From Capillimicrobium parvum (GTDB lineage Bacteria; Actinomycetota; Thermoleophilia; Solirubrobacterales; Solirubrobacteraceae), in assembly GCF_021172045.1 (NCBI RefSeq), contig NZ_CP087164.1, forward strand, positions 5,580,001 through 5,644,000: 64,000 bases of DNA, in the 5' to 3' direction. The position numbers and the translations under genes are program-made. The first letter of the stretch is position 1, and each line of letters starts with the position of its first letter. The notes beneath the pieces are model-generated. The model was not told the DNA's origin, ran no database searches, and saw nothing but the letters and a program-made list of their open reading frames with translations. Below are positions 35,964 to 63,403 of this stretch, in pieces.

Positions 35964-38081
35964 ATGGGATACCGCGTCGGCATCGACATCGGCGGGACGT
36001 TCACGGACTTCGTCATCATCGACGATGACGGCGAGGTCACCCTGTGGAAGGAGGACTCGACCCCCGACGATCCCATGGAAGCGATCGAGGAGGGTCTCCG
36101 GGCCGTCTCCGACCATCTCGGGACCTCGCTGGAGGCGCTGCTCGAGGCGAGCGAGGCGTTCGTCCACGGGTCCACCATCGCGACGAACACGCTGATCCAG
36201 CGCGACGGAGGTCCCGCCGGGCTGCTGTGCACGCAGGGCTTCCGCGACGTCCTGCTGTTCCGCGACGGCTTCAAGCCCGAGCGCTTCAACGTCCATCTCA
36301 AACGCCCGGACGACTTCGTCGATCGCTACCTCCGGCTCGACGTGCCCGAGCGCATCAACGTCGACGGCGACGTTCTCGTCGAGCTGGACGAGGGCGCGGT
36401 GCGATCGGCGGCCGCCCACTTCCGGGAGACGGGCGTCAAGGCCATCGCCGTGGCCTTCCTGTGGTCCGTCGTCAACGGCACCCACGAGGACCGGGCGGCC
36501 GAGATCCTGCGCGAGGAGCTGCCGGGCGTCGACGTGCTCTGCTCGAAGGACGTCCTGCGGGAGATCCGCGAATGGGAGCGCACGTCGGCGACGGTCCTGA
36601 GCGCCTACGTGCTGCCGAAGATCGGCGACTACCTGCGCCGGCTCGAAGGCTTCCTCGACGAGAAGCGCCTTGCGCATCCTGCGCAGTACATGCAGATCAA
36701 CGGCGGCTGCGCGTCGGTGGAGGAGATCATGCAGCGGCCGGTCAACACGCTGGGCTCGGGCCCGGCCGCGGCGCCGGCGGCCGCGGCGTTTCACCTGGCG
36801 CCGGGTACCAACGGTCGCTCCAACGGGGCGGCGGCGCAGGGCGCCGCCAACGTCATCACCATCGACATGGGCGGGACCAGCTTCGACGTCTGCCTCATCC
36901 GCGAGGGCCGGCCCACCATGTCGCGCTCGATCCAGGTCGAGTTCCAGCCCATCGGCGTCTCGGGCGTCGAGGTGCAGTCCATCGGCGCCGGCGGCGGCAG
37001 CATCGCCTGGATCGACACCGGCGGCGCGCTGCGGGTCGGGCCGCAGAGCGCCGGGGCCAGGCCGGGACCCGCGTGCTACGGCGCCGGCGGCGAGCAGCCC
37101 ACCGTCACGGATGCCAACGTCGTCCTCGGCTACCTGTCACCCACGGCGTTCCTGGGCGGCCGGCGGACGCTTCGAGAGGATCTCGCGACCAGCGCCGTGG
37201 CGTCCGGGGTCGGGGACCCGCTGGGACTGGACGCGATCCACGGCGCGGCGGGGATCATCGAGGTGGTCAACGCGAACATGGTCGGCGGGATTCGCTCCGT
37301 GTCCGTCGAGCGCGGCATCGATCCCCGCGGGTACATGCTGGTCTCGGGCGGCGGCGCCGGCGGCCTGCACGCGGCCAGACTCGCCCGGCAGCTGGGCATG
37401 CGCCAGGTCATGATCCCGCCCGAGGCCTCGACCTTCTGCGCGTTCGGCATGACCGTCACCGACGTGCGTCACGACTACACGCTGTCGCATCACGCGCTGT
37501 CCAACGACATGGACATCTCGGCGTTCGACGCCCCGTTCGCGCAGCTCGAGGGCAAGGCCCGCGAGCGGCTGCGTCGCGACGGCTTCCGGGATGAGCAGAT
37601 CCACCTCGAGCGCTCCGTCGATGCCCGCTATCGCAACCAGATCCACGAGCTGACCATCCCCATCCCCGGCGACGAGCACTACGGACCCGAGCAGCTCGAG
37701 ACCATCCTGTCGACGTTTCACGGCGAGCACGAGAGCCAGTTCACCTACTCGCTCCCCGACGTTCCGGTGGAGTTCCTCCACTGGCGCCTGGCCGCCATCG
37801 CGGAGTCCCCTCGCGTGCCCAGGCCGGCCGCGGCTGCCGCCGACGACCCCATGGCGGCCGGACAGGCGGCGCTGACGGGAGAACGCGAGGCGTACTTCCC
37901 CGAGTTCGGCGAGAAGGTCGCCACGCCGGTCTACACGATGAGCAGGCTCGCACCGAACGCGACCATCCGTGGCCAGGCGATCGTCGAGTCGCCCAACACC
38001 ACCCTGGTCATCAATCCCGGCGATGAGGTCGACGTCCTCGACGGAGGCCGCCTGCTCGTCACCGTCGGCGCCGCCGGATAG
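35964..38081 (+). CDS. Hydantoinase A/oxoprolinase-like subunit (HyuA family)
   Basis: A 705-residue ATP-binding subunit with the acetate-kinase/Hsp70 fold: GIDIGGTFTDFVI, FVHGSTIATNTLIQRDGGP, VNTLGSGPAAAPAAAA and ITIDMGGTSFDVCLI are the phosphate-binding loops. The stretch HLAPGTNGRSNGAAAQGAAN, between two of these motifs, is an unusual low-complexity linker. GGAAGGAG precedes ATG 35964, 20 nt after hyuB. It acts with HyuB in ATP-dependent ring opening or carboxylation. Confidence 0.88.
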   Translation: MGYRVGIDIGGTFTDFVIIDDDGEVTLWKEDSTPDDPMEAIEEGLRAVSDHLGTSLEALLEASEAFVHGSTIATNTLIQRDGGPAGLLCTQGFRDVLLFRDGFKPERFNVHLKRPDDFVDRYLRLDVPERINVDGDVLVELDEGAVRSAAAHFRETGVKAIAVAFLWSVVNGTHEDRAAEILREELPGVDVLCSKDVLREIREWERTSATVLSAYVLPKIGDYLRRLEGFLDEKRLAHPAQYMQINGGCASVEEIMQRPVNTLGSGPAAAPAAAAFHLAPGTNGRSNGAAAQGAANVITIDMGGTSFDVCLIREGRPTMSRSIQVEFQPIGVSGVEVQSIGAGGGSIAWIDTGGALRVGPQSAGARPGPACYGAGGEQPTVTDANVVLGYLSPTAFLGGRRTLREDLATSAVASGVGDPLGLDAIHGAAGIIEVVNANMVGGIRSVSVERGIDPRGYMLVSGGGAGGLHAARLARQLGMRQVMIPPEASTFCAFGMTVTDVRHDYTLSHHALSNDMDISAFDAPFAQLEGKARERLRRDGFRDEQIHLERSVDARYRNQIHELTIPIPGDEHYGPEQLETILSTFHGEHESQFTYSLPDVPVEFLHWRLAAIAESPRVPRPAAAAADDPMAAGQAALTGEREAYFPEFGEKVATPVYTMSRLAPNATIRGQAIVESPNTTLVINPGDEVDVLDGGRLLVTVGAAG

Positions 38082-38101
38082 GCCGGGAGGAGCGCGTCCT
38101 C

Positions 38102-39265
38102 GTGACCGGGCCGAGCGTCGTCGTCGTCGGCGCGGGAGCGGCAGGGTTGAGCGCGGCGCTCTGCCTCGTCGAGCGCGCATGCCCCGACGTCACGGTCATC
38201 GACCGCGGGCACGTGGCGTCCGGGTCCTCGTCGCTGTCGGCCGGGGTCTTCACCCGGCAGTACACCGAGCGAATGGACATCGCGTTGCGCGTCGAGTCCT
38301 ACGAGCGCCTGTGTCAGCTCGAGCGCGACGCCGGGTTGGTCATGCGCCGCAACGGGTTCCTGCGCCTTGCGCACGACGAGGCCACGATGGACGAGTTCGT
38401 GCGCGGCGCCGCGCTGCAGCACGAGCTCGGCGCGACCGACGCGCAGGCCGTCGATCGGCGGGAGGTGCAGCGGCTTGTGCCGGACCTCCGTTGCGACGAC
38501 GTGTCCGGCGGCCTGTTCGGCCCCACCGACGGCTACCTCGACGGCCAGCAGCTGTGCATGGCGTACGCGGAGCAGGCCCAGGCCCGCGGCGCACGGATCC
38601 TTGCGCGTCATGAGCTCACGGGCTACGACGAGCTCCCCGGGGGCCGGCACCGTCTGACGACGTCCCGAGGCCGGCTGGAGTGCGACGTCGTCCTCAACGC
38701 GGCGGGCGCCTGGGCCCCCGCGGTCGGCGCGCTGCTCGGCGCTCCCGTGCAGATCGTCGCCGAGCGCCACCAGGCATGCGTGATGCGCCTCGACGCCCCG
38801 CTGGCCTACGAGCTGCCGTCGGTCATGGACTACGTGGCGGGCAGCGGCGAGGTCGGGCTGTATCTGCGCCCCGAGGGCGAACGGCAGCTCATCGCCGGCC
38901 TGCACAGCAACGAGCGCCTCGAGCAGGCGGCTGACCCCGACGACTTCCACGGCGGCGCCGATGCGGCCTTCATCGACGCGCTGATCCCGCTGCTCGTCGA
39001 CCGGATGCCGGGTCTCGCCGGCATCGGATTCGAGGGCGGCTGGGCGGGCCTCTACCCCAACAGCGTGGACGAGCGCTTCATCATCGGGCCCTGTCCTGGC
39101 CGGGATGGCATCCACGCCCTGTGCGGGCTCGACGGCGTGGGCGTCTACATGTCCCCCGCGGCGGGACGGATCGCCGCCGACTGGATCCTCGACGGCGAGC
39201 CGCGCTCCGCACACGAGGCCGTGGCGTTCTCACCCGACCGGTTCGAGGCGCGCGAACGGGTATGA
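38102..39265 (+). CDS. FAD-dependent oxidoreductase (DAO family)
   Basis: A 387-residue D-amino-acid-oxidase/glycine-oxidase-like flavoprotein: VVVVGAGAAGLSAALCL at the N-terminus and CGLDGVGVYMSPAAGRIAADWILDG at the C-terminus. The family deaminates or demethylates secondary amines and amino acids such as sarcosine, proline or glycine. GTG 38102 follows GGGAGGAGCG. It overlaps the next gene by 4 nt. Confidence 0.85.
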   Translation: MTGPSVVVVGAGAAGLSAALCLVERACPDVTVIDRGHVASGSSSLSAGVFTRQYTERMDIALRVESYERLCQLERDAGLVMRRNGFLRLAHDEATMDEFVRGAALQHELGATDAQAVDRREVQRLVPDLRCDDVSGGLFGPTDGYLDGQQLCMAYAEQAQARGARILARHELTGYDELPGGRHRLTTSRGRLECDVVLNAAGAWAPAVGALLGAPVQIVAERHQACVMRLDAPLAYELPSVMDYVAGSGEVGLYLRPEGERQLIAGLHSNERLEQAADPDDFHGGADAAFIDALIPLLVDRMPGLAGIGFEGGWAGLYPNSVDERFIIGPCPGRDGIHALCGLDGVGVYMSPAAGRIAADWILDGEPRSAHEAVAFSPDRFEARERV

Positions 39266-40275
39266 CCGGCGCGGCTCCCGTGGGTGTCGCCGTCTACGGC
39301 ACCGGGCGCGCGGGGACCGAGATCGTGCGTGCGTGCGGGCTGCGTCCGGACGTGCGCGTCGTCGCGGGCATCGCCGCCACGAAGGCCAAGGAGGGCGCCG
39401 ACCTCGGCGCGGTCACGGTCGGTGCCCCCCTGGGGGTCGAGGTCACGTGCGACCTCGAGGGGGTCCTCGCCCGCCCGGACGTCGACGTCGTGCTCCACGC
39501 CGGCATCGGCACGCCGCCGGAGGTCGCCTCGCTGCTCGGGCGGTGCGCCGACGCGGGCAAGGACGCGATCACCGTCGCGGGCCTCGTGCACCCGCCCACC
39601 GCGCTCGGCGCCGAGGGCGCCGCGGCGCTGCACGGGCGCGCCCGCGACGGCGGAGCGCGTGTCGTGGGGACCGGCGTCAACCCCGGCTTCCTGCTCGACG
39701 CCCTGCCCGCCGTATGGGGCAGCATGGTGGGCCGGGTCGACCGCCTGCACGCCCGCCGGGTCGGCGACATCCGGCACTGGGGCGCGGGGGCGCTCGACGG
39801 GGAGGTCGGCCTCGGACGACCGCCCGAGGAGGTGCGCGGCAACCGGGCGCTGTCGCTCGACGAGTCGCTCGCGCTGGTCGCCGAGGCACTCGACCTGCGC
39901 TTCGATCGGACCGAGGACCTGCACGAGGCGCTGCCGGCGCCGAACGTGCGCGAGCACGGCGGACGCCGTGTCGCGCCCGGACGGACCATGGGCTTTCGCA
40001 GGCGGTCGATCGGCCGGCGCGGCGGCGATGTCCTGGCCGAGATCGAGTGGATCGCGATCTTCTGCCTCGATCCGGCGCGCGACGGCGTCGAGGAAGCCGC
40101 CACCCTGCGCATCGAGGGCGACAGCAATGTCGAGGCGTCGGCGTCCGGAACCTTCTTCGGCGATCCCTACCCGAGCACCGCCGCACGGGCCGTCAACGCG
40201 ATCGGGCCGCTGCGCAGCCTGCCCCCCGGTCTCTACCGGCCGGACGAGCTGCCGAGCTCATCGCGCCCGAGATGA
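39262..40275 (+). CDS. Diaminopentanoate dehydrogenase/DapB-like NAD(P)-binding reductase
   Basis: A 337-residue Rossmann protein. VAVYGTGRAGTEIVRAC is the nucleotide motif, GTGVNPGFLLDALPAVW the second-domain signature typical of 2,4-diaminopentanoate dehydrogenase-like and dihydrodipicolinate-reductase-like proteins. It may convert an amino or imino intermediate from the upstream oxidase. The C-terminus (SSSRPR) and stop are encoded by the first 43-bp hairpin repeat. Confidence 0.75.
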   Translation: MTGAAPVGVAVYGTGRAGTEIVRACGLRPDVRVVAGIAATKAKEGADLGAVTVGAPLGVEVTCDLEGVLARPDVDVVLHAGIGTPPEVASLLGRCADAGKDAITVAGLVHPPTALGAEGAAALHGRARDGGARVVGTGVNPGFLLDALPAVWGSMVGRVDRLHARRVGDIRHWGAGALDGEVGLGRPPEEVRGNRALSLDESLALVAEALDLRFDRTEDLHEALPAPNVREHGGRRVAPGRTMGFRRRSIGRRGGDVLAEIEWIAIFCLDPARDGVEEAATLRIEGDSNVEASASGTFFGDPYPSTAARAVNAIGPLRSLPPGLYRPDELPSSSRPR

Positions 40276-40379
40276 GCGCCCGGCGGGTGCGACGCCGAGC
40301 TCATCGCGCCCGAGATGAGCGCGCAGCGGGTGCGACGCCGAGCTCATCGCGCCCGAGATGAGCGCCCGGCGGGTTCGAC
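40251..40379. repeat. Tandem 43-bp hairpin repeat, three copies
   Basis: Three direct copies of 43 bp (40251-40293, 40294-40336, 40337-40379) differ at only 1-2 positions. Each contains GCTCATC-N8-GATGAGC, a 7-bp stem with an 8-nt loop. Both convergent genes end in it: the plus-strand stop (40273-40275) is in the stem of copy 1 and the minus-strand stop (40344-40346) in that of copy 3. It probably works as a bidirectional terminator that was amplified. Confidence 0.85.
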
Positions 40380-41630
40380 GCGGCCCCCGTCGGCGGGCGG
40401 CCGCCATCCGGTGGCCACGTCGTCCACCGCGGAGCTGATGACGTCGACGATCTCGTCGGCCACCGCCTGCTCCATCGGTGTCGACAGCGCCACGAGACCG
40501 GTGGGGTTGAGGAGCAGGCCCCGGCGGTATGCCGCCCACCACAGCGCCCGGTAGATCGTGGCGCGGTCGTCGCCGGGCGCGACGGGCCACGGTCGCAGGA
40601 GCGACCCCGAGCCGCGCACCTCCCACCCCGCTGCGGCGAGCGGGGCCTCGAGCGACCCGCGAACCCGGTCGCCGAGCTCGTTGAGCCGCCGGATCTCCGC
40701 GTCGTCGAAGAGGTCGAGCGCCGCGAGGCCCGCGGCCATCGTGACGGGATTGCCCGAGAAGGTGCCGCCGTGGTCGAGTCCGGTGGCCCGGCGCGGGTCG
40801 AGCTCGTGCATGATCTCGCCCCGGCCGGCGACCGCGCCGACGGGGAACCCGCCCCCGATGAGCTTGCCGAGGATGACGAGATCGGGCTCGAGTCCGTAGA
40901 GCGGGCTGCGCCCGGTCGGACCGAGGCGGAACGAGATGACCTCATCGACGACGATCACGATGCCGTGGGCGTGACACAGCTGCACGAGGGTCCGCACGTG
41001 CTCGGGCTCGGCGGGCAGCAGGCCCGGCCGGTTGGGCATGAGGTCGATGAGGACGGCGGCGACGTCCGCGCCCTTGCGCTCGATCGTGTCGATCAGCGCT
41101 GCGGTGTCGTTGTGGCCGAGCAGGATGGTGTCGCGCATCACGCCGGGTGGCAGACCGCGTCGCGAGCGCTCGTCGCCGGTCGCCAGCGCGATGTCGGAGA
41201 AGCCGTGGTAGGCCCGATCGGTGAGGATGCACCGAGATCGCCCGGTATGTGCGCGCGCGATCCGCAACGCGGTCATGACCGCCTCGGTCCCGGAGTTGAC
41301 GTACCGGACGGCGTCCGCATTCGGGAGTCGCTCCAGCAGCGTCTCGGCGTGGTCGAGCTCGCGCTCGTTCGGTAGGCCGAACGCGCTGCCGTCCTCGATC
41401 GCCCGGAACGCCGCCGCCACGATGGCCGGGTGCGCGTGGCCGTGGATGAGCGACGCGAAGTTGTTGTTGCAGTCGATGACGACGCGCCCGGTGTCATCCC
41501 AGAGGCGACAACCCTCGCCCCGGATCGCGTAGGGCGCGCCAGGCCCCACCATGTACGACGAGCGACCGTACCCCCCGGGCAGCACCCGGCGGGCGCGTTC
41601 GCGCGGATCCCGTGCGCGCTGCGTCAACAT
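40344..41630 (-). CDS. Glutamate-1-semialdehyde-type aminotransferase (class III PLP)
   Basis: A 428-residue class III PLP enzyme: VRYVNSGTEAVMTALRIAR, GIVIVVDEVISFRLGPTG (Asp for the pyridine nitrogen), ILGKLIGGGFPVGAVAG (Schiff-base Lys) and GTFSGNPVTMAAG. This pattern is typical of the HemL-like group, but the catabolic context makes a role in haem synthesis unlikely. It could move an amino group on a diamino or keto-amino acid. Its terminal residues SSRAR come from repeat copy 3. Confidence 0.85.
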   Translation of the reverse strand: MLTQRARDPRERARRVLPGGYGRSSYMVGPGAPYAIRGEGCRLWDDTGRVVIDCNNNFASLIHGHAHPAIVAAAFRAIEDGSAFGLPNERELDHAETLLERLPNADAVRYVNSGTEAVMTALRIARAHTGRSRCILTDRAYHGFSDIALATGDERSRRGLPPGVMRDTILLGHNDTAALIDTIERKGADVAAVLIDLMPNRPGLLPAEPEHVRTLVQLCHAHGIVIVVDEVISFRLGPTGRSPLYGLEPDLVILGKLIGGGFPVGAVAGRGEIMHELDPRRATGLDHGGTFSGNPVTMAAGLAALDLFDDAEIRRLNELGDRVRGSLEAPLAAAGWEVRGSGSLLRPWPVAPGDDRATIYRALWWAAYRRGLLLNPTGLVALSTPMEQAVADEIVDVISSAVDDVATGWRPPADGGRVEPAGRSSRAR

Positions 41631-41834
41631 CCCGGCCGACGTTAGATCGGCGCTTCGGGCCCATCAATTGGCGCCGGACACAAAGTCGGCGCATGGCATT
41701 TGGCGCGTTTCGCGCGCCCACGCGGGGGGTTGGGCCGGCGCCACAATCATCTCGTCACACTTGGTCCCGGTTCCCAATTGCCAACGCCCGTGCGGCGCCT
41801 CCAGACTGGAGGTGACCAGGAAGGAGGGTGAGCG
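41631..41834. promoter_or_regulatory. Divergent regulatory region with inverted repeats
   Basis: This gap separates the divergent aminotransferase and aldehyde dehydrogenase genes. It holds two CAATTG palindromes (41665-41670 and 41775-41780), an imperfect inverted pair GGCGCCGG (41670-41677)/CCGGCGCC (41735-41742), and GGCGCG-N5-CGCGCC at 41702-41718. Base composition is less GC-rich than the coding flanks. It is probably a shared control region, but no operator of known type is recognised. Confidence 0.35.
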
Positions 41835-43397
41835 GTGTCGAGCATCACCTATGCGACCGTCTACACCCAGGGCCTCGGGGATGACGAGAAGAGCCGCGCA
41901 TACGAGCGGGAGCTGACGCGGCTGCGCGAGGCCGGGAGCCCCCGAGCGTGTGGTCATCACATCGCCGGACAGGAGATCGACAGCGGGCCCGCGTTCGACC
42001 GTGCCGATCCTTCGGACGCGTCCCGCGTCGTCAGCCGTGGACGGCTGGCCGATGGCGAGCTCGTCGACCGGGCGGTGGCCGCCGCACGCGAAGCCCTGCC
42101 GGACTGGCGGCGAACGGACTACCACCAGCGCGCCGAGATCCTGCGCCGGACCCTGCAGGCGATCGAACGCCGCCATGTGGAGCTCGCGGCGCTTCTCACG
42201 CTCGAGACGGGCAAGACGCGCGCCGACGCCTTCGCCGAGGTCGCCGAGTGTGCGGCGATCGTCGAGCTGTACTGCAACCAGGTCACGGCCGCCGAAGGGT
42301 TCGTCGTCGCGCATCGCCCGCCGTCGCCGACGTCCCACGCCGACGTGGTCCTGCTGCCGTACGGCGTCTTCGGCGTCATCTCACCGTTCAACTTCCCGCT
42401 CGCGATCTCCTTCGGGATGACGGCCGCGGCGCTGATCATGGGCAACACCGTCGTCTTCAAGCCGTCGCCGCTGACGCCCGCCTGTGGACAGGCGTTCGCG
42501 CAGCTGTTCGACGGCGTCGGGCTGCCGACCGGGGTCCTGAACCTCGTGCAGGGCGGCTCGGAGACCGGACAGGCGCTCGCCGGCGCCGCGGTGGACGGCA
42601 TCGCCTTCACGGGCTCGGCCGACGTCGGCCTGGACTTCGTCGCGCGATTCGGACGGCCGCCGTTCGTCCGCCCTGTGCTCGCGGAGATGGGCGGCAAGAA
42701 CCCGGCGATCGTCACCGACGCCGCCGGCGACCTCGACACCGCCGCGCGCGCCGTGGCCCGGTCGGCATTCGGCATGTCCGGGCAGAAGTGCAACGCGTGC
42801 TCGCGCGCCATCGTCACCGATGGCGTCTACGACGACTTCATCGAGCGGCTGTGCGCGATCACGTCCGAGCTGGTCGTCGCCGATCCCATCGACGCATCGG
42901 CGTTCACGGGACCCGTCATCAGCGACTCGTCGGTCGCGCGCTTCCAGGAGTCGGTCGCCCTGGCGCGTCAGGACGGCCGCGTGCTCGTGGGCGGCGGGAG
43001 TGCCGGCGGTCCCGGCCACTTCGTGGAGCTCACGCTCGTCGATCGCCTGCCGTCCGCGCACCCCCTGACCCGTGACGAGCTGTTCGTCCCGATCGTCTCG
43101 GTCGTCCGCGCCGGCGACCTCGACGAGGCGCTCGCCGAGGCCAACGCGATCCGCTACGGCCTCTCGGCGGGCATCTTCAGCAACGACCCACGCGAACGGG
43201 AGCGCTTCCTCGACGAGATCGAGGCCGGCATCGTCTTCCTGAACAACCCCGGCGGCGCGACGACGGGCGTGTGGCCGGGAAGCCAGACGATGTCGGGCTG
43301 GAAGGGCAGCGGGTCGGCGGGCAAGGGCGGCTTCGGCCCGTGGTACCTCCACCAGTTCGGGCGCGAGCAGAGCCGCACCGTCTTCGACGTCGCCTGA
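41835..43397 (+). CDS. Aldehyde dehydrogenase, 1-pyrroline-5-carboxylate dehydrogenase-like
   Basis: A 520-residue ALDH. FGVISPFNFPLAISFGM and GNTVVFKPS form the NAD site, LAEMGGKNPAIV has the general-base Glu, and SGQKCNACSR matches the P5C dehydrogenase signature GQKCSACSR with its catalytic Cys. It oxidises a semialdehyde, plausibly glutamate-semialdehyde-like, to the acid. AAGGAGGG at 41821-41828 precedes GTG 41835. Confidence 0.87.
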   Translation: MSSITYATVYTQGLGDDEKSRAYERELTRLREAGSPRACGHHIAGQEIDSGPAFDRADPSDASRVVSRGRLADGELVDRAVAAAREALPDWRRTDYHQRAEILRRTLQAIERRHVELAALLTLETGKTRADAFAEVAECAAIVELYCNQVTAAEGFVVAHRPPSPTSHADVVLLPYGVFGVISPFNFPLAISFGMTAAALIMGNTVVFKPSPLTPACGQAFAQLFDGVGLPTGVLNLVQGGSETGQALAGAAVDGIAFTGSADVGLDFVARFGRPPFVRPVLAEMGGKNPAIVTDAAGDLDTAARAVARSAFGMSGQKCNACSRAIVTDGVYDDFIERLCAITSELVVADPIDASAFTGPVISDSSVARFQESVALARQDGRVLVGGGSAGGPGHFVELTLVDRLPSAHPLTRDELFVPIVSVVRAGDLDEALAEANAIRYGLSAGIFSNDPRERERFLDEIEAGIVFLNNPGGATTGVWPGSQTMSGWKGSGSAGKGGFGPWYLHQFGREQSRTVFDVA

Positions 43398-43415
43398 CCG
43401 CCCCGCCGCGCGTGC

Positions 43416-44285
43416 TCAGGGCGAGACGGCAGGCGCTTCGCCGGGCTCGGTGTTGAAGCCGGGCAATGCGTAGTGACCGGCGTCGACGGTGAGCGTGATG
43501 CCGGTCACGTGGGCAGCCTCGTCGGACGCGAGATACAGGACGGCGTTGCTCACCGAGCTCGGCGGAACAAGGCTCTCGGGAAGGCTGCCCCAGTGTGGCG
43601 CCGCCGCCAGCCGGTCCTCCTGGGTGCCGCCTTCGCGGCCCGCCATGAAGTCGAGCGCCCCCTGCCAGCTGTTCATGACGGTGTCGATCAGCCCGGGGGC
43701 GATCGCGTTGCAGCGCACGCTGTAGGGCCCGAGCTCGACGGCCAGCGTCTTGGCCAGGTTGATGACGCCGGCCTTCGTCGCGCCGTAGTGCGCGCAGCGC
43801 GCGGACGCCTCGAGGCCGTTGACCGAGGCGATGAGAACCACGGAGCCCTGACGGCGCTCCATCATGTGGCCGACGACGGCACGGGCGGTGTTGAAGACGC
43901 CGGTCAGGTTGATGTCGATGACCGTCTGCCAGCGCTCCGGGGTCAGCTCCCAGAACCGGTCGATGACCCAGATCCCGGCGTTCGCCACCGCCGTATCGAT
44001 CTGTCCGAACCGGTCCAGGCCCTCGTCGACGGCCCGGGCGAGGTCCTCGAACCGGCGCACATCTCCCTGAACGACGAGCGCCTGCCGGCCGAGCTCCTCG
44101 ACGGCCGACGCCGTCTGCTGCAGATCTTCCGGGCTTGCGAGCTCGTACGGCACGCCGTCGATCTGGGCCGCGACATCGAACAGGATGACGTCCGCGCCCT
44201 CGCGAGCCAAGGTGAGCGCGTGGGAGCGGCCCTGACTACGGGCGGCCCCGGTGATGAACGCGACCTTGCCCTGCATTCTCGGCAT
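43416..44285 (-). CDS. Mycofactocin-coupled SDR family oxidoreductase
   Basis: A 289-residue SDR that matches the mycofactocin-associated subfamily: GKVAFITGAARSQGRSHALTLA, then VPYELASPEDLQQTASAVEELGRQALVVQGDVR, a characteristic insert. ANAGIW, IASVNG and YGATK are the catalytic landmarks. Such enzymes hold NAD tightly and pass electrons to the peptide-derived cofactor mycofactocin. No mft biosynthesis genes are in the window, so the cofactor would be made elsewhere in the genome. ATG 44285 has GGGAGAG upstream. Confidence 0.85.
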   Translation of the reverse strand: MPRMQGKVAFITGAARSQGRSHALTLAREGADVILFDVAAQIDGVPYELASPEDLQQTASAVEELGRQALVVQGDVRRFEDLARAVDEGLDRFGQIDTAVANAGIWVIDRFWELTPERWQTVIDINLTGVFNTARAVVGHMMERRQGSVVLIASVNGLEASARCAHYGATKAGVINLAKTLAVELGPYSVRCNAIAPGLIDTVMNSWQGALDFMAGREGGTQEDRLAAAPHWGSLPESLVPPSSVSNAVLYLASDEAAHVTGITLTVDAGHYALPGFNTEPGEAPAVSP

Positions 44286-59843: not shown

Positions 59844-60492
59844 GGACGGACTCCTCGGCGGCAACGGCGATGTCGGGCAGGGCGTCGACGCCGACGGGAC
59901 GGCCGCCGAGGTGGCGGGCGGCGTCGTCGACGGTCTCCCAGAAGTACGCGCCGTACGCGGCGCCGAACAGGACGAGGTAGCGGTCGGCCGCCTCGCGCAG
60001 GACGTAGCCCGGCGTACGCGCCACCGAGCCGGGCCGGAACGCGTGGACCGGCGTGACCTTCGGGCGCAGGTCGAGCGCGCAGAACCGGGCGAACGTCTCG
60101 CGCGCCAGCGGCCCGGCGATGACCATCGCGCCGAAGCTCGCGGTCACGTCGAGCACGTGCACGCCGCCGAGGTCCTCGGGCGGCGCCGCGGTCGTCAGCA
60201 CGAAGGCGCGCGTCGGCGTGACCGGGCAGTGCCAGCCGTCCTCGGTGCGCTGCGCGGCGCCCAGCGGCACGTCCGGGACGGCGCCCTGCAGCTCGAGCTT
60301 GCCGAGGTGCGAGAGGTCGGCGAAGCCGACCGTCTCGGCGCACGCGGCCACCTCGGCCGTCGCGTCGCCGAACGACGTCGCGACCTCCCAGCCGCCGCGC
60401 ACCTCGTAGGTCGCGCCGGCGGCCTGCGTCAGGTCGGCCATCGGGCTGCGCGCGGGCGCCGCGCCCTCCGGGGACAGGAATGCCAGGCTCAC
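59836..60492 (-). CDS. soxG: Sarcosine oxidase gamma subunit
   Basis: A 218-residue SoxG-like subunit: VGFADLSHLGKLELQG, LTTAAPPEDLGGVHVLDVTASFGAMVIAGP and RTPGYVLREAADRYLVLFGAAYGAYFWE are GcvT-like fold segments. Start at GTG 60492. Typical length. It completes the complex with the other three subunits. Confidence 0.85.
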   Translation of the reverse strand: MSLAFLSPEGAAPARSPMADLTQAAGATYEVRGGWEVATSFGDATAEVAACAETVGFADLSHLGKLELQGAVPDVPLGAAQRTEDGWHCPVTPTRAFVLTTAAPPEDLGGVHVLDVTASFGAMVIAGPLARETFARFCALDLRPKVTPVHAFRPGSVARTPGYVLREAADRYLVLFGAAYGAYFWETVDDAARHLGGRPVGVDALPDIAVAAEESVHA

Positions 60493-60544
60493 GATGCGAT
60501 CTCCCTCAGGTTCGAAGCCGTTGTGTGTGAGGACCCGCAGCGTC

Positions 60545-63403
60545 TCATCCCCGCAGCACCTCGCCTTCGGGGTCGTAGAACGGTTTCGTCGTGACGGTCG
60601 CCGGGAACGTCCGCGACTCGTCGGAGATCGTGATCGAGGCGCCGTCCGTCGCCAGCGCGACGGGCACCCACGCCATCCCGATCGAGGCGCCCAGCTTCGG
60701 CGAGCGCCGTGAGCTCGTCACCTGGCCGGCGGGCTTGCCCCCGACGACCACGACCGCGCCCTCGGTCGGCACCTCGCCGTTCTGGCACGTGAACCCGACC
60801 AATGCGGTCTCGGCCGGATGCTGCGAGGCCTGCTCGAGCGCCCACTTGCCGATGAACTCCTGCTCCTTGTCGAGCTTGACCGACCAGCCCATCGCCGCGC
60901 CGTAGGGCGTCGACTCCGAGTCGGTGTCCTGCCCGACGAGGATGTGCAGCTTCTGCAGGCGCAGGATCCGCTGCGGCTCGAGGCCGAACGGCCGCGCGCC
61001 CTCGGCGGCGACCGCGTCCCACAGCGCCCGGCCCTGCGGCGCCGCGCAGTGCAGCTCGTAGCCGACCTCACCCACGAAGCCGATGCGCATCGCCAGGCAG
61101 GGCACGCCCGCCACGGTGATGTGCTGGGCGTCGAGGTACGGGAACGCCTCGTTGGAGCAGTCGGCGTCGGTGAGCCGCGTCAGCATCTCGCGCGCCTGCG
61201 GGCCGGCGAGGTTCATCGCCGCCACGCCCTGCGTGACGTCGGTGAGGTGGGCGTCCAGGCCCCAGTCGGCCAGCCACCAGGAGAACCACGCCTCGACCGC
61301 GGCCGCGCCGCTCGACGTCGTCGTCACGTAGAACGTCTCGTCGTCGATCCGGCCGACCGTACCGTCGTCGGTGATACGCCCCGCGTCGGAGGTCAGCACG
61401 CCGTAGCGGATGCGCCCCGGCTTGAGGGTCGACATGCGGTTCGGGTACAGCCGGTCGAGCAGCTCGCCGGCGTCCGGCCCGCGCACGATGAGCTTGCCGA
61501 GCGTCGACACGTCGATCAACCCGGCGGTCGTCTGCACGGCGAGCGCCTCGCCCTCCGGGTCGCCGTAGTCGTAGGCGCGGCGCCAGTCGCCCGCCCACCG
61601 GTCGGTGGCGCCGAGCTCCGTGTGGCGGCCGTGGACCGCCGAGCGCTTGGCCGCCTCCAGCGGCCGGCCGGCGAGCGCGCCCATCGGCACCGTCGACCAG
61701 GGCGGCCGCGCGGTCGTCATGCCGACGTCGCCCATCGACAGGCCGGTCGCGCCGGCGAGCGCCCGGATCGAGGCGAGCTGCGACAGGCGGCCCTGCGACG
61801 GGCCCATCGTCACCGTCGTGTAGCGCTTGGACAGCTCGATGGTGTCGTAGCCCTCGGCGGCCGCGTACTCGACGTCCTTGACGGTGATGTCCTCGTCGAG
61901 GTCGACGAACGCCTTGCCGCCCTTCCTGCCGTCACGAGCCTGGGCGGGCGGGGTGGCCACGGGAGATGGCGCCGCCAGCCCGTCCACCCGCGCGCGGAGC
62001 TCGTCGAGCCCCCCCGCGTCGAGCCCGAGCGCGGCGGCCGCCTCGGCGCCCGCCAGCGTCCCCGACAGCTCGGCGGTGTCCGCGCTCTCGTGGCCGGCGA
62101 CCGCGCCCGCCGCGTGGACGCTGGGCGGCAGCGCGTCTGCGACGAACCGGCCGGTGGCCTGGTCGAAGCGGGCGCGCGCCCCCGACTGCAGCAGCAGCGA
62201 GGTCGCCGGCGCGGCGCCTGCGGAGACCGCGAGCAGGTCGCACTCGATCCGCTCCTCGGTGCCGGCGACCGCCTGTCCGCGGTCGTCGACGCGGGCGAGC
62301 GCGACGCCCTCGACGCCCTTGCGCCCGAGCGCCCGGACGGGCGTGAAGCCCTGGACGACCCGCAGGCCGAGCTCCTGGGCGCGCGCGGTCCGCGCGGTGG
62401 GCTCGGTGCGCAGGTCGGCGATCGCCGCGACCGGGATCCCCGCCGCGTGCAGCGCCAGCGCGGCGTCGAGCCCGTCGTCGCCGACCGCGGCGACCACGGC
62501 CCGCTCGCCGACCCGCAGGCCGTACAGCGCGGCCATGCGGCGCGCGCCGCCCGCGAGCATGACGCCGGGCAGGTCGTTGTCGGCGAAGACGAGCGGCTGC
62601 TCGATCGTGCCCGTCGCCGCGACGAACCGCGCGGCGCGGATCTGGTGCAGCGTGCTGTCCTGCCAGACCGGCACGAGGCCGTCGAAGAAGCCGAGCGCGG
62701 GCGCGCGGCTGAGGATCTCGACGCCCGCGGCCCGGGCCCGCTGCGCCAGCTCGCGGGCACGGTCGCCCCCGCCCTCGGCCAGCAGCCGGCCGCCCGGCTC
62801 TGCGTCCTCGTCGCACAGGACGACGTCGGCGCCCGCCTCGGCGGCCCGCAGCGCCGCGGCCAGGCCGGCGATCCCGCCACCGACGACGAGCACGTCGCAG
62901 TGGCGCCGGCGGTACTCGGTGCGCCACTCGCGCTCCTCCTGGCGCTTGGGCAGCTTGCCCAGGCCGGCGGCGTGGCGCAGGACCTTCTCGTAGACCGGCC
63001 ACATCCGCCGCGGGCGGATGAACGTCTTGTAGTAGAAGCCCGGCGGGGTGAACGGCCCGGCGAACTTGTCGGTCGCCGACATCACGTCGAAGTCGAGCGA
63101 CGGCCACGCGTTCTGGTGCTCGACCTTCATGCCCGCGACGATCGGCTCGCTGCAGGCGCGGATGCCGGGGCGCCCGTCGACGGTGACGAGCGAGTTCGCG
63201 CAGTGGCCGCAGCCGCAGATCTCGCCGCGCGGCCGGTGGTACTTGAAGGAGCGGGAGAAGACGCGCTGGCCGGAGGCGAACAGCGCCGAGGCGATCGTGT
63301 CGCCCGCGAAGCCGGTGACGGGCTTGCCGTCCCAGGTGAACGGGACGGGCCGCGAGCGGTCGATGCGCTCGCCGGGCTGGACGGGCAGGCGGGCCGTGCT
63401 CAT
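60545..63403 (-). CDS. soxA: Sarcosine oxidase alpha subunit
   Basis: A 952-residue alpha subunit. The N-terminal region holds CGCGHCANS (Fer2_4-like), then a FAD/NAD Rossmann pair (DVLVVGGGIAGLAAALRAAEAGADVVLCDED), and from about residue 570 a GcvT-type tetrahydrofolate-binding domain (GATDRWAGDWRRAYDYGD). It channels the methyl carbon as 5,10-methylene-THF. It overlaps soxD by 4 nt. Confidence 0.95.
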   Translation of the reverse strand: MSTARLPVQPGERIDRSRPVPFTWDGKPVTGFAGDTIASALFASGQRVFSRSFKYHRPRGEICGCGHCANSLVTVDGRPGIRACSEPIVAGMKVEHQNAWPSLDFDVMSATDKFAGPFTPPGFYYKTFIRPRRMWPVYEKVLRHAAGLGKLPKRQEEREWRTEYRRRHCDVLVVGGGIAGLAAALRAAEAGADVVLCDEDAEPGGRLLAEGGGDRARELAQRARAAGVEILSRAPALGFFDGLVPVWQDSTLHQIRAARFVAATGTIEQPLVFADNDLPGVMLAGGARRMAALYGLRVGERAVVAAVGDDGLDAALALHAAGIPVAAIADLRTEPTARTARAQELGLRVVQGFTPVRALGRKGVEGVALARVDDRGQAVAGTEERIECDLLAVSAGAAPATSLLLQSGARARFDQATGRFVADALPPSVHAAGAVAGHESADTAELSGTLAGAEAAAALGLDAGGLDELRARVDGLAAPSPVATPPAQARDGRKGGKAFVDLDEDITVKDVEYAAAEGYDTIELSKRYTTVTMGPSQGRLSQLASIRALAGATGLSMGDVGMTTARPPWSTVPMGALAGRPLEAAKRSAVHGRHTELGATDRWAGDWRRAYDYGDPEGEALAVQTTAGLIDVSTLGKLIVRGPDAGELLDRLYPNRMSTLKPGRIRYGVLTSDAGRITDDGTVGRIDDETFYVTTTSSGAAAVEAWFSWWLADWGLDAHLTDVTQGVAAMNLAGPQAREMLTRLTDADCSNEAFPYLDAQHITVAGVPCLAMRIGFVGEVGYELHCAAPQGRALWDAVAAEGARPFGLEPQRILRLQKLHILVGQDTDSESTPYGAAMGWSVKLDKEQEFIGKWALEQASQHPAETALVGFTCQNGEVPTEGAVVVVGGKPAGQVTSSRRSPKLGASIGMAWVPVALATDGASITISDESRTFPATVTTKPFYDPEGEVLRG

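Follow-up and report, generated by a model that had tools for sequence, protein, structure and literature searches.

A tripled 43-bp hairpin unit at the junction of two convergent genes in Capillimicrobium parvum

The convergent junction and its repeat array

In the 64,000-nucleotide stretch of Capillimicrobium parvum DNA analysed here (the window), a gene for an NAD(P)-binding oxidoreductase (gene 1), which has an N-terminal DapB_N domain and a C-terminal domain of the 2,4-diaminopentanoate dehydrogenase type, converges on a gene for a class-III aminotransferase (gene 2), and both end within a tandem repeat (Table 1). The host genome is a single contig of 5.95 Mb with a GC content of about 73%. 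TRF describes the repeat, at 40251-40381, as 3.0 copies of period 43 with 94% matches and a score of 241, which bears out the initial annotation of a hairpin unit tripled at a convergent junction, with GCTCATC, 8 nt and GATGAGC in each copy. The span given there, 40251-40379, does hold the three units, but its end falls short of the array, which continues for two bases beyond unit 3 and terminates with a 2-bp repeat of its own start.

Table 1. Coordinates of the genes, repeat units, hairpins and 56-bp element (window positions unless a locus is named).
Feature	Position	Strand	Remark
Gene 1, NAD(P)-binding oxidoreductase, 337 aa	39262..40275	+	ends in unit 1
Gene 2, class-III aminotransferase, glutamate-1-semialdehyde aminomutase-like, 428 aa	40344..41630	-	ends in unit 3
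Unit 1, 43-bp tandem repeat	40251..40293	no strand	carries the stop codon of the + gene
Unit 2	40294..40336	no strand	entirely intergenic; differs from unit 1 at two positions of the 21-nt spacer
Unit 3	40337..40379	no strand	the - gene stops here; differs from unit 1 at one spacer position
Hairpin 1, GCTCATC-GCGCCCGA-GATGAGC	40256..40277	no strand	TCA and TGA inside give a stop codon on each strand
Hairpin 2	40299..40320	no strand	same sequence as hairpin 1
Hairpin 3	40342..40363	no strand	same sequence as hairpin 1
56-bp element	60488-60547		
56-bp element, G000 loci	L130 11523-11696; L066 9758-9929; L121 5276-5453; and others		
56-bp element, G000 loci	L123 2230-2402; L052 2674-2845; L116 3039-3099; and others		

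The head-to-tail arrangement of the copies and their likeness above chance (3.0 x 43 bp, 94%) are those of a minisatellite. The 22-nt core GCTCATCGCGCCCGAGATGAGC, which coincides with the hairpin and is identical in all three units, has no further match with up to three mismatches in the window outside the array, and none was obtained in 100 dinucleotide shuffles; as a repeat, the array is far beyond chance. Alignment of the units shows three substitutions, all of them in the 21-nt spacer and none in the hairpin, and together with the array itself it supports the tandem duplication that had been proposed.

Both genes stop within an outer hairpin, gene 1 (TGA, 40273-40275) in unit 1 and gene 2 (40346-40344) in unit 3, and the protein tails read ...LPSSSRPR and ...AGRSSRAR, in agreement with the C-termini SSSRPR and SSRAR that were annotated initially. 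The present spacing between the two genes is 68 bp. Homologues of gene 1 end no more than 3-4 residues from the end point of gene 1. With the closest homologue of gene 2 (63% identity), the alignment extends as far as residue 421 of 428; this homologue has four more residues, and its end falls 3-4 residues before that of the gene 2 protein. Remoter homologues stop 10-20 residues before it in most cases, within a tail of poor conservation. The array therefore occupies a natural gene junction, and truncation or frame shift of either gene is unlikely.

It was claimed at first that the duplication had changed both protein ends. It follows directly from the sequence that the ends would be unaltered, because every unit carries in its palindrome both TCA, the stop codon for the minus-strand gene, and TGA, the stop codon for the plus-strand gene. 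A single unit would yield gene 1 with GCTCATCGCGCCCGAGATGA to the stop and gene 2 with GCTCATCTCGGGCGCGATGA to the stop, exactly as now: unit 1 alone gives the same plus-strand end, and unit 3 alone gives the same minus-strand end. Because 43 equals 1 modulo 3, the three units place one TGA in each frame on each strand and so close all six frames; correspondingly, three plus-strand and three minus-strand reading frames in the list of open reading frames terminate within the array.

Each hairpin has a 7-bp stem and an 8-nt loop, and its RNA folding energy is predicted at about -10 kcal/mol for both strands; the palindrome is equal on both strands except for its loop. The gaps between neighbouring hairpins are 21 nt (40278-40298 and 40321-40341). 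The 7-bp stem by itself is unremarkable and is attained by 8% of shuffled units. Folding of the whole array gives z-scores of -1.59 on the plus strand and -0.48 on the minus strand, which is not clearly better than shuffles, and an unusual global fold was dropped as a candidate; the minimum-energy fold pairs units with one another and does not keep three separate hairpins. A known RNA family was also rejected, with no Rfam match of note (a single hit of 18 bits against a cut-off of 70).

Repeats at gene junctions in the host genome and its relatives

The initial annotation offered a REP-like element as one reading of the array. Like REP elements, the array is an intergenic palindrome near the ends of convergent genes and supplies stop codons, as REPs can (PMC3733652). 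What defines REPs, however, is a large number of dispersed copies together with a tag, GTAG or CGTC (PMC3733652), whereas the array is a single, untagged locus: neither tag flanks the palindrome in any of the units, the 43-bp unit has no other occurrence in the 5.95-Mb genome, and the stem pattern, with 3-12 nt allowed for the loop, recurs at just two other genome sites, each single and with different loops. The gene junction with the array was not found in 200 relatives, and the unit search in these relatives gave, apart from the array itself, matches in 135 genomes at 37-48 bits, which are chance-level hits in GC-rich sequence. A homologue of gene 1 is found in only 2 of 100 relatives searched (37-43% identity), and a search of genome contigs with the aminotransferase gave only a match of 26% identity. 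The unit being unique in the genome, a REP or other dispersed repeat is ruled out as its class, and a REP-like mobile palindrome is an extremely improbable account of the array.

A dispersed element of another kind was observed at operon junctions (Table 1). This 56-bp intercistronic element, with the rough sequence (G)TGAGACCCTGCGGGTCCTCAC...CGACCC.GCGGGAGG...CATCGTGA, begins at the TGA stop of the preceding gene and extends to, or almost to, the GTG start of the following one, a layout such as insertion of n x 56 bp into a GTGA stop/start overlap would give; it forms a hairpin from the stop onward and often has a Shine-Dalgarno-like GGGAGG ahead of the start. With at most one mismatch, its core occurs at 53 places in the genome, against 0 for the reversed control, in 1-4 tandem copies; the junctions include dnaN/recF-like, sarcosine oxidase alpha/gamma-like, Dioxygenase_C, ArsA and metallo-hydrolase/HisRS-like pairs. 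It is nearly absent in 200 relatives (2 in one congener and, in a single genome from a different family, 7 of a G-variant). The element looks like a REP-like, mobile or translational-coupling element, and it looks more interesting than the tripled hairpin. A profile of it has no match at 40251-40381, and its sequence is unrelated to the tripled unit. Since it occurs in 1-4 tandem copies, short junction segments do multiply in tandem in this genome.

Tandem arrays with a unit of at least 30 bp, at least 88% likeness and a score of at least 100 were collected from 1.664 Mb of the host genome and assigned by means of a simple codon-usage gene caller, whose starts and short genes are approximate and whose stops are exact for called genes. 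Of the 44 arrays, 18 lie in genes and 26 at gene junctions. The period is divisible by 3 in all 18 in-gene arrays and in only 1 of the 26 junction arrays (p 0.0006), or 1 of 21 (p 0.004) when the 56-bp family is left out, a bias that has an ascertainment cause, in that in-frame arrays are read as gene and frameshifting ones as gene ends; it is missing in shorter arrays (15-29 bp). Arrays with units of at least 15 bp are found at 12 of 231 convergent junctions and at 29 of 1139 other junctions (Fisher p 0.053). Six complete genomes of relatives contain 5 junction arrays in 1.2 Mb, about a quarter of the host density (p 0.003), and the excess in the host may reflect biology, classification bias or assembly.

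A layout similar to that of the tripled unit, with the two stops either within an array or at its edge, is found at the convergent junctions L070 14118-14268, L131 13049-13170, L080 17856-18101 and L102. Most other junction arrays have a stem no better than in shuffles; certain of them are 98-100% identical, and their periods and divergence vary over scattered genome positions. As to the argument that terminators are usually single, tandem arrays at gene junctions are frequent in this genome; the triplication is real but ordinary for its host. A more extreme array was also observed at L095 13539-13733 (G000:C1:4313539-4313733), where a 20-bp unit (consensus CGCGGGTCAACCCGCAAGG) that forms a small hairpin is repeated about 10.5 times between two convergent genes.

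Hairpins at convergent gene ends

A stem of 7 bp is present at 41% of convergent junctions in the host genome. Among 182 convergent junctions, 26% have a stem of at least 8 bp, whereas the figure is 8% in shuffles and 6.8% both at codirectional junctions and inside genes; at least 4 U within 8 nt accompany only 1 of 48 convergent-junction hairpins. Six sampled relatives, with 20-26 convergent junctions each, have the same hairpin tendency and almost no U-tracts. Base composition at gene ends and one-sided hairpins account for part of the excess, because when left halves are joined to right halves from other junctions, stems of at least 8 bp persist in 12.9%, versus 18.8% observed.

At the array, the GC-rich stem-loop of a canonical intrinsic terminator is present and the U-tract after the stem is absent: no T-run follows any of the three stems, on either strand, and no terminator-like site is found in 38000-43500. 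What the locus does offer is a U-less hairpin within 50 nt of a stop codon, usable on both strands of a convergent junction. U-less GC-rich hairpins have been reported at mapped RNA 3' ends in Streptomyces, and those of mycobacteria have been termed I-shaped terminators (PMC8269248, PMC12288462). According to Czyz et al. 2014, as cited in PMC12288462, mycobacterial RNA polymerase reportedly requires a U-tract. A function of the array as a bidirectional 3'-end hairpin, predicted from its position and its hairpin, is plausible, with the chances about evenly balanced. As a separate observation, the genome does have a Rho-like gene, but its best match (G000:C1:2093714-2095024) reaches only 154 bits where the curated cut-off is 509, so that in this lineage Rho may have diverged or may contain an insertion.

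Proposed origin of the array and its known counterparts

The array is probably best explained by a near-neutral tandem triplication of a hairpin segment shared by two gene ends, with a putative 3'-end role. The ancestor would have had one unit, whose palindrome GCTCATC...GATGAGC held both stop codons, so that the two genes shared an 18-nt tail-to-tail overlap and their mRNAs had one common hairpin at the 3' ends. The 43-bp segment across the shared gene end would then have been triplicated in tandem by slippage or short-homology recombination. The change would have been near-neutral because the first copy came to hold the end of gene 1 and the last copy that of gene 2, with unaltered proteins. 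As duplication of a segment across a junction leaves both genes intact, arrays of this kind can build up almost neutrally. Each hairpin likely marks or protects the 3' ends of both transcripts: it may act as a bidirectional terminator of the U-less, I-shaped kind, or it may block 3' exonucleases once Rho-type or collision-driven termination has taken place. The three copies would provide redundancy, along with 68 bp of spacer in which each of the six frames has a TGA. Near-neutral duplication is the main explanation, and the function of the hairpin is secondary and less certain.

A purely neutral minisatellite with an incidental hairpin would have the same duplication history and differs on function only; its probability is put somewhat below one half. 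It agrees with the formation of a 7-bp stem by 8% of shuffled units and with the lack, in most other junction arrays, of a stem better than shuffles. It also agrees with the in-gene arrays, whose periods are without exception divisible by 3, as they should be if harmless duplications are the only ones to persist. The commoner occurrence of arrays at convergent junctions and the excess of hairpins there over shuffles speak against it, as do the intact cores, although three substitutions would all fall in the spacer by chance with a probability of about 12%. It is unlikely that selection keeps the triplication as a reinforced bidirectional terminator and six-frame stop in a genome of 73% GC in which stops are rare. 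The array closes all three frames within 86 nt on both strands, as only 6% of host convergent gene ends do within 89 nt, and junction arrays of at least 30 bp avoid multiples of 3; however, frame closure within 89 nt is no more frequent at convergent ends (6.1%) than at codirectional ones (6.8%), and selection for six-frame stops was set aside as a candidate, the suggestive modulo-3 bias being confounded by array classification and missing in the shorter arrays. The broader proposition that stop-bearing palindromes multiplied in tandem are a selected insulation of convergent genes in this GC-rich lineage is more doubtful still; if true, units that are not multiples of 3 would give six-frame stops, and stacked hairpins would halt transcription from both sides. 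An assembly artefact that multiplied one unit has a similarly slight probability: it would fit the higher frequency of junction arrays in the host than in relatives (26 in 1.664 Mb versus 5 in 1.2 Mb) and the 98-100% identity of some of them, but units 2 and 3 have substitutions of their own, the genome is one contig, and arrays of varied period and divergence are spread across it.

The array shows a shared gene end copied in tandem without effect on the proteins, each copy having both stops, which corrects the view that such a duplication alters protein ends. The host genome multiplies short junction segments unusually often and could be used to measure how spacers arise between overlapping convergent genes.

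Several known systems resemble the array. In bidirectional terminators between convergent genes (Ju, Li and Liu 2019, as cited in PMC8269248; the Bi-TEPs of Streptomyces clavuligerus), one palindrome supplies the 3' ends of two convergent transcripts, as it would here, and an overlap of less than 60 bp is a further shared feature; the array differs in its three tandem copies and lack of a U-tract on either strand. With I-shaped terminators (PMC12288462, PMC8269248) it shares the absence of a U-tract and a GC-rich stem-loop that lies at the stop codon or no more than 50 nt from it, here in a genome of 73% GC, whereas its stem is modest (7 bp, 8-nt loop, about -10 kcal/mol) and tripled. The hairpin clusters described as intrinsic terminators by Gupta and Pal 2021 (PMC8355165) likewise consist of several consecutive hairpins past a stop codon with no poly-U; the gaps of the array, at 21 nt, exceed their rule of less than 15 bases, and its hairpins are copies of one sequence. 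Finally, the array shares short, near-identical head-to-tail units with bacterial minisatellites or VNTRs at intergenic sites, and it differs from them in that its unit includes the ends of both genes.
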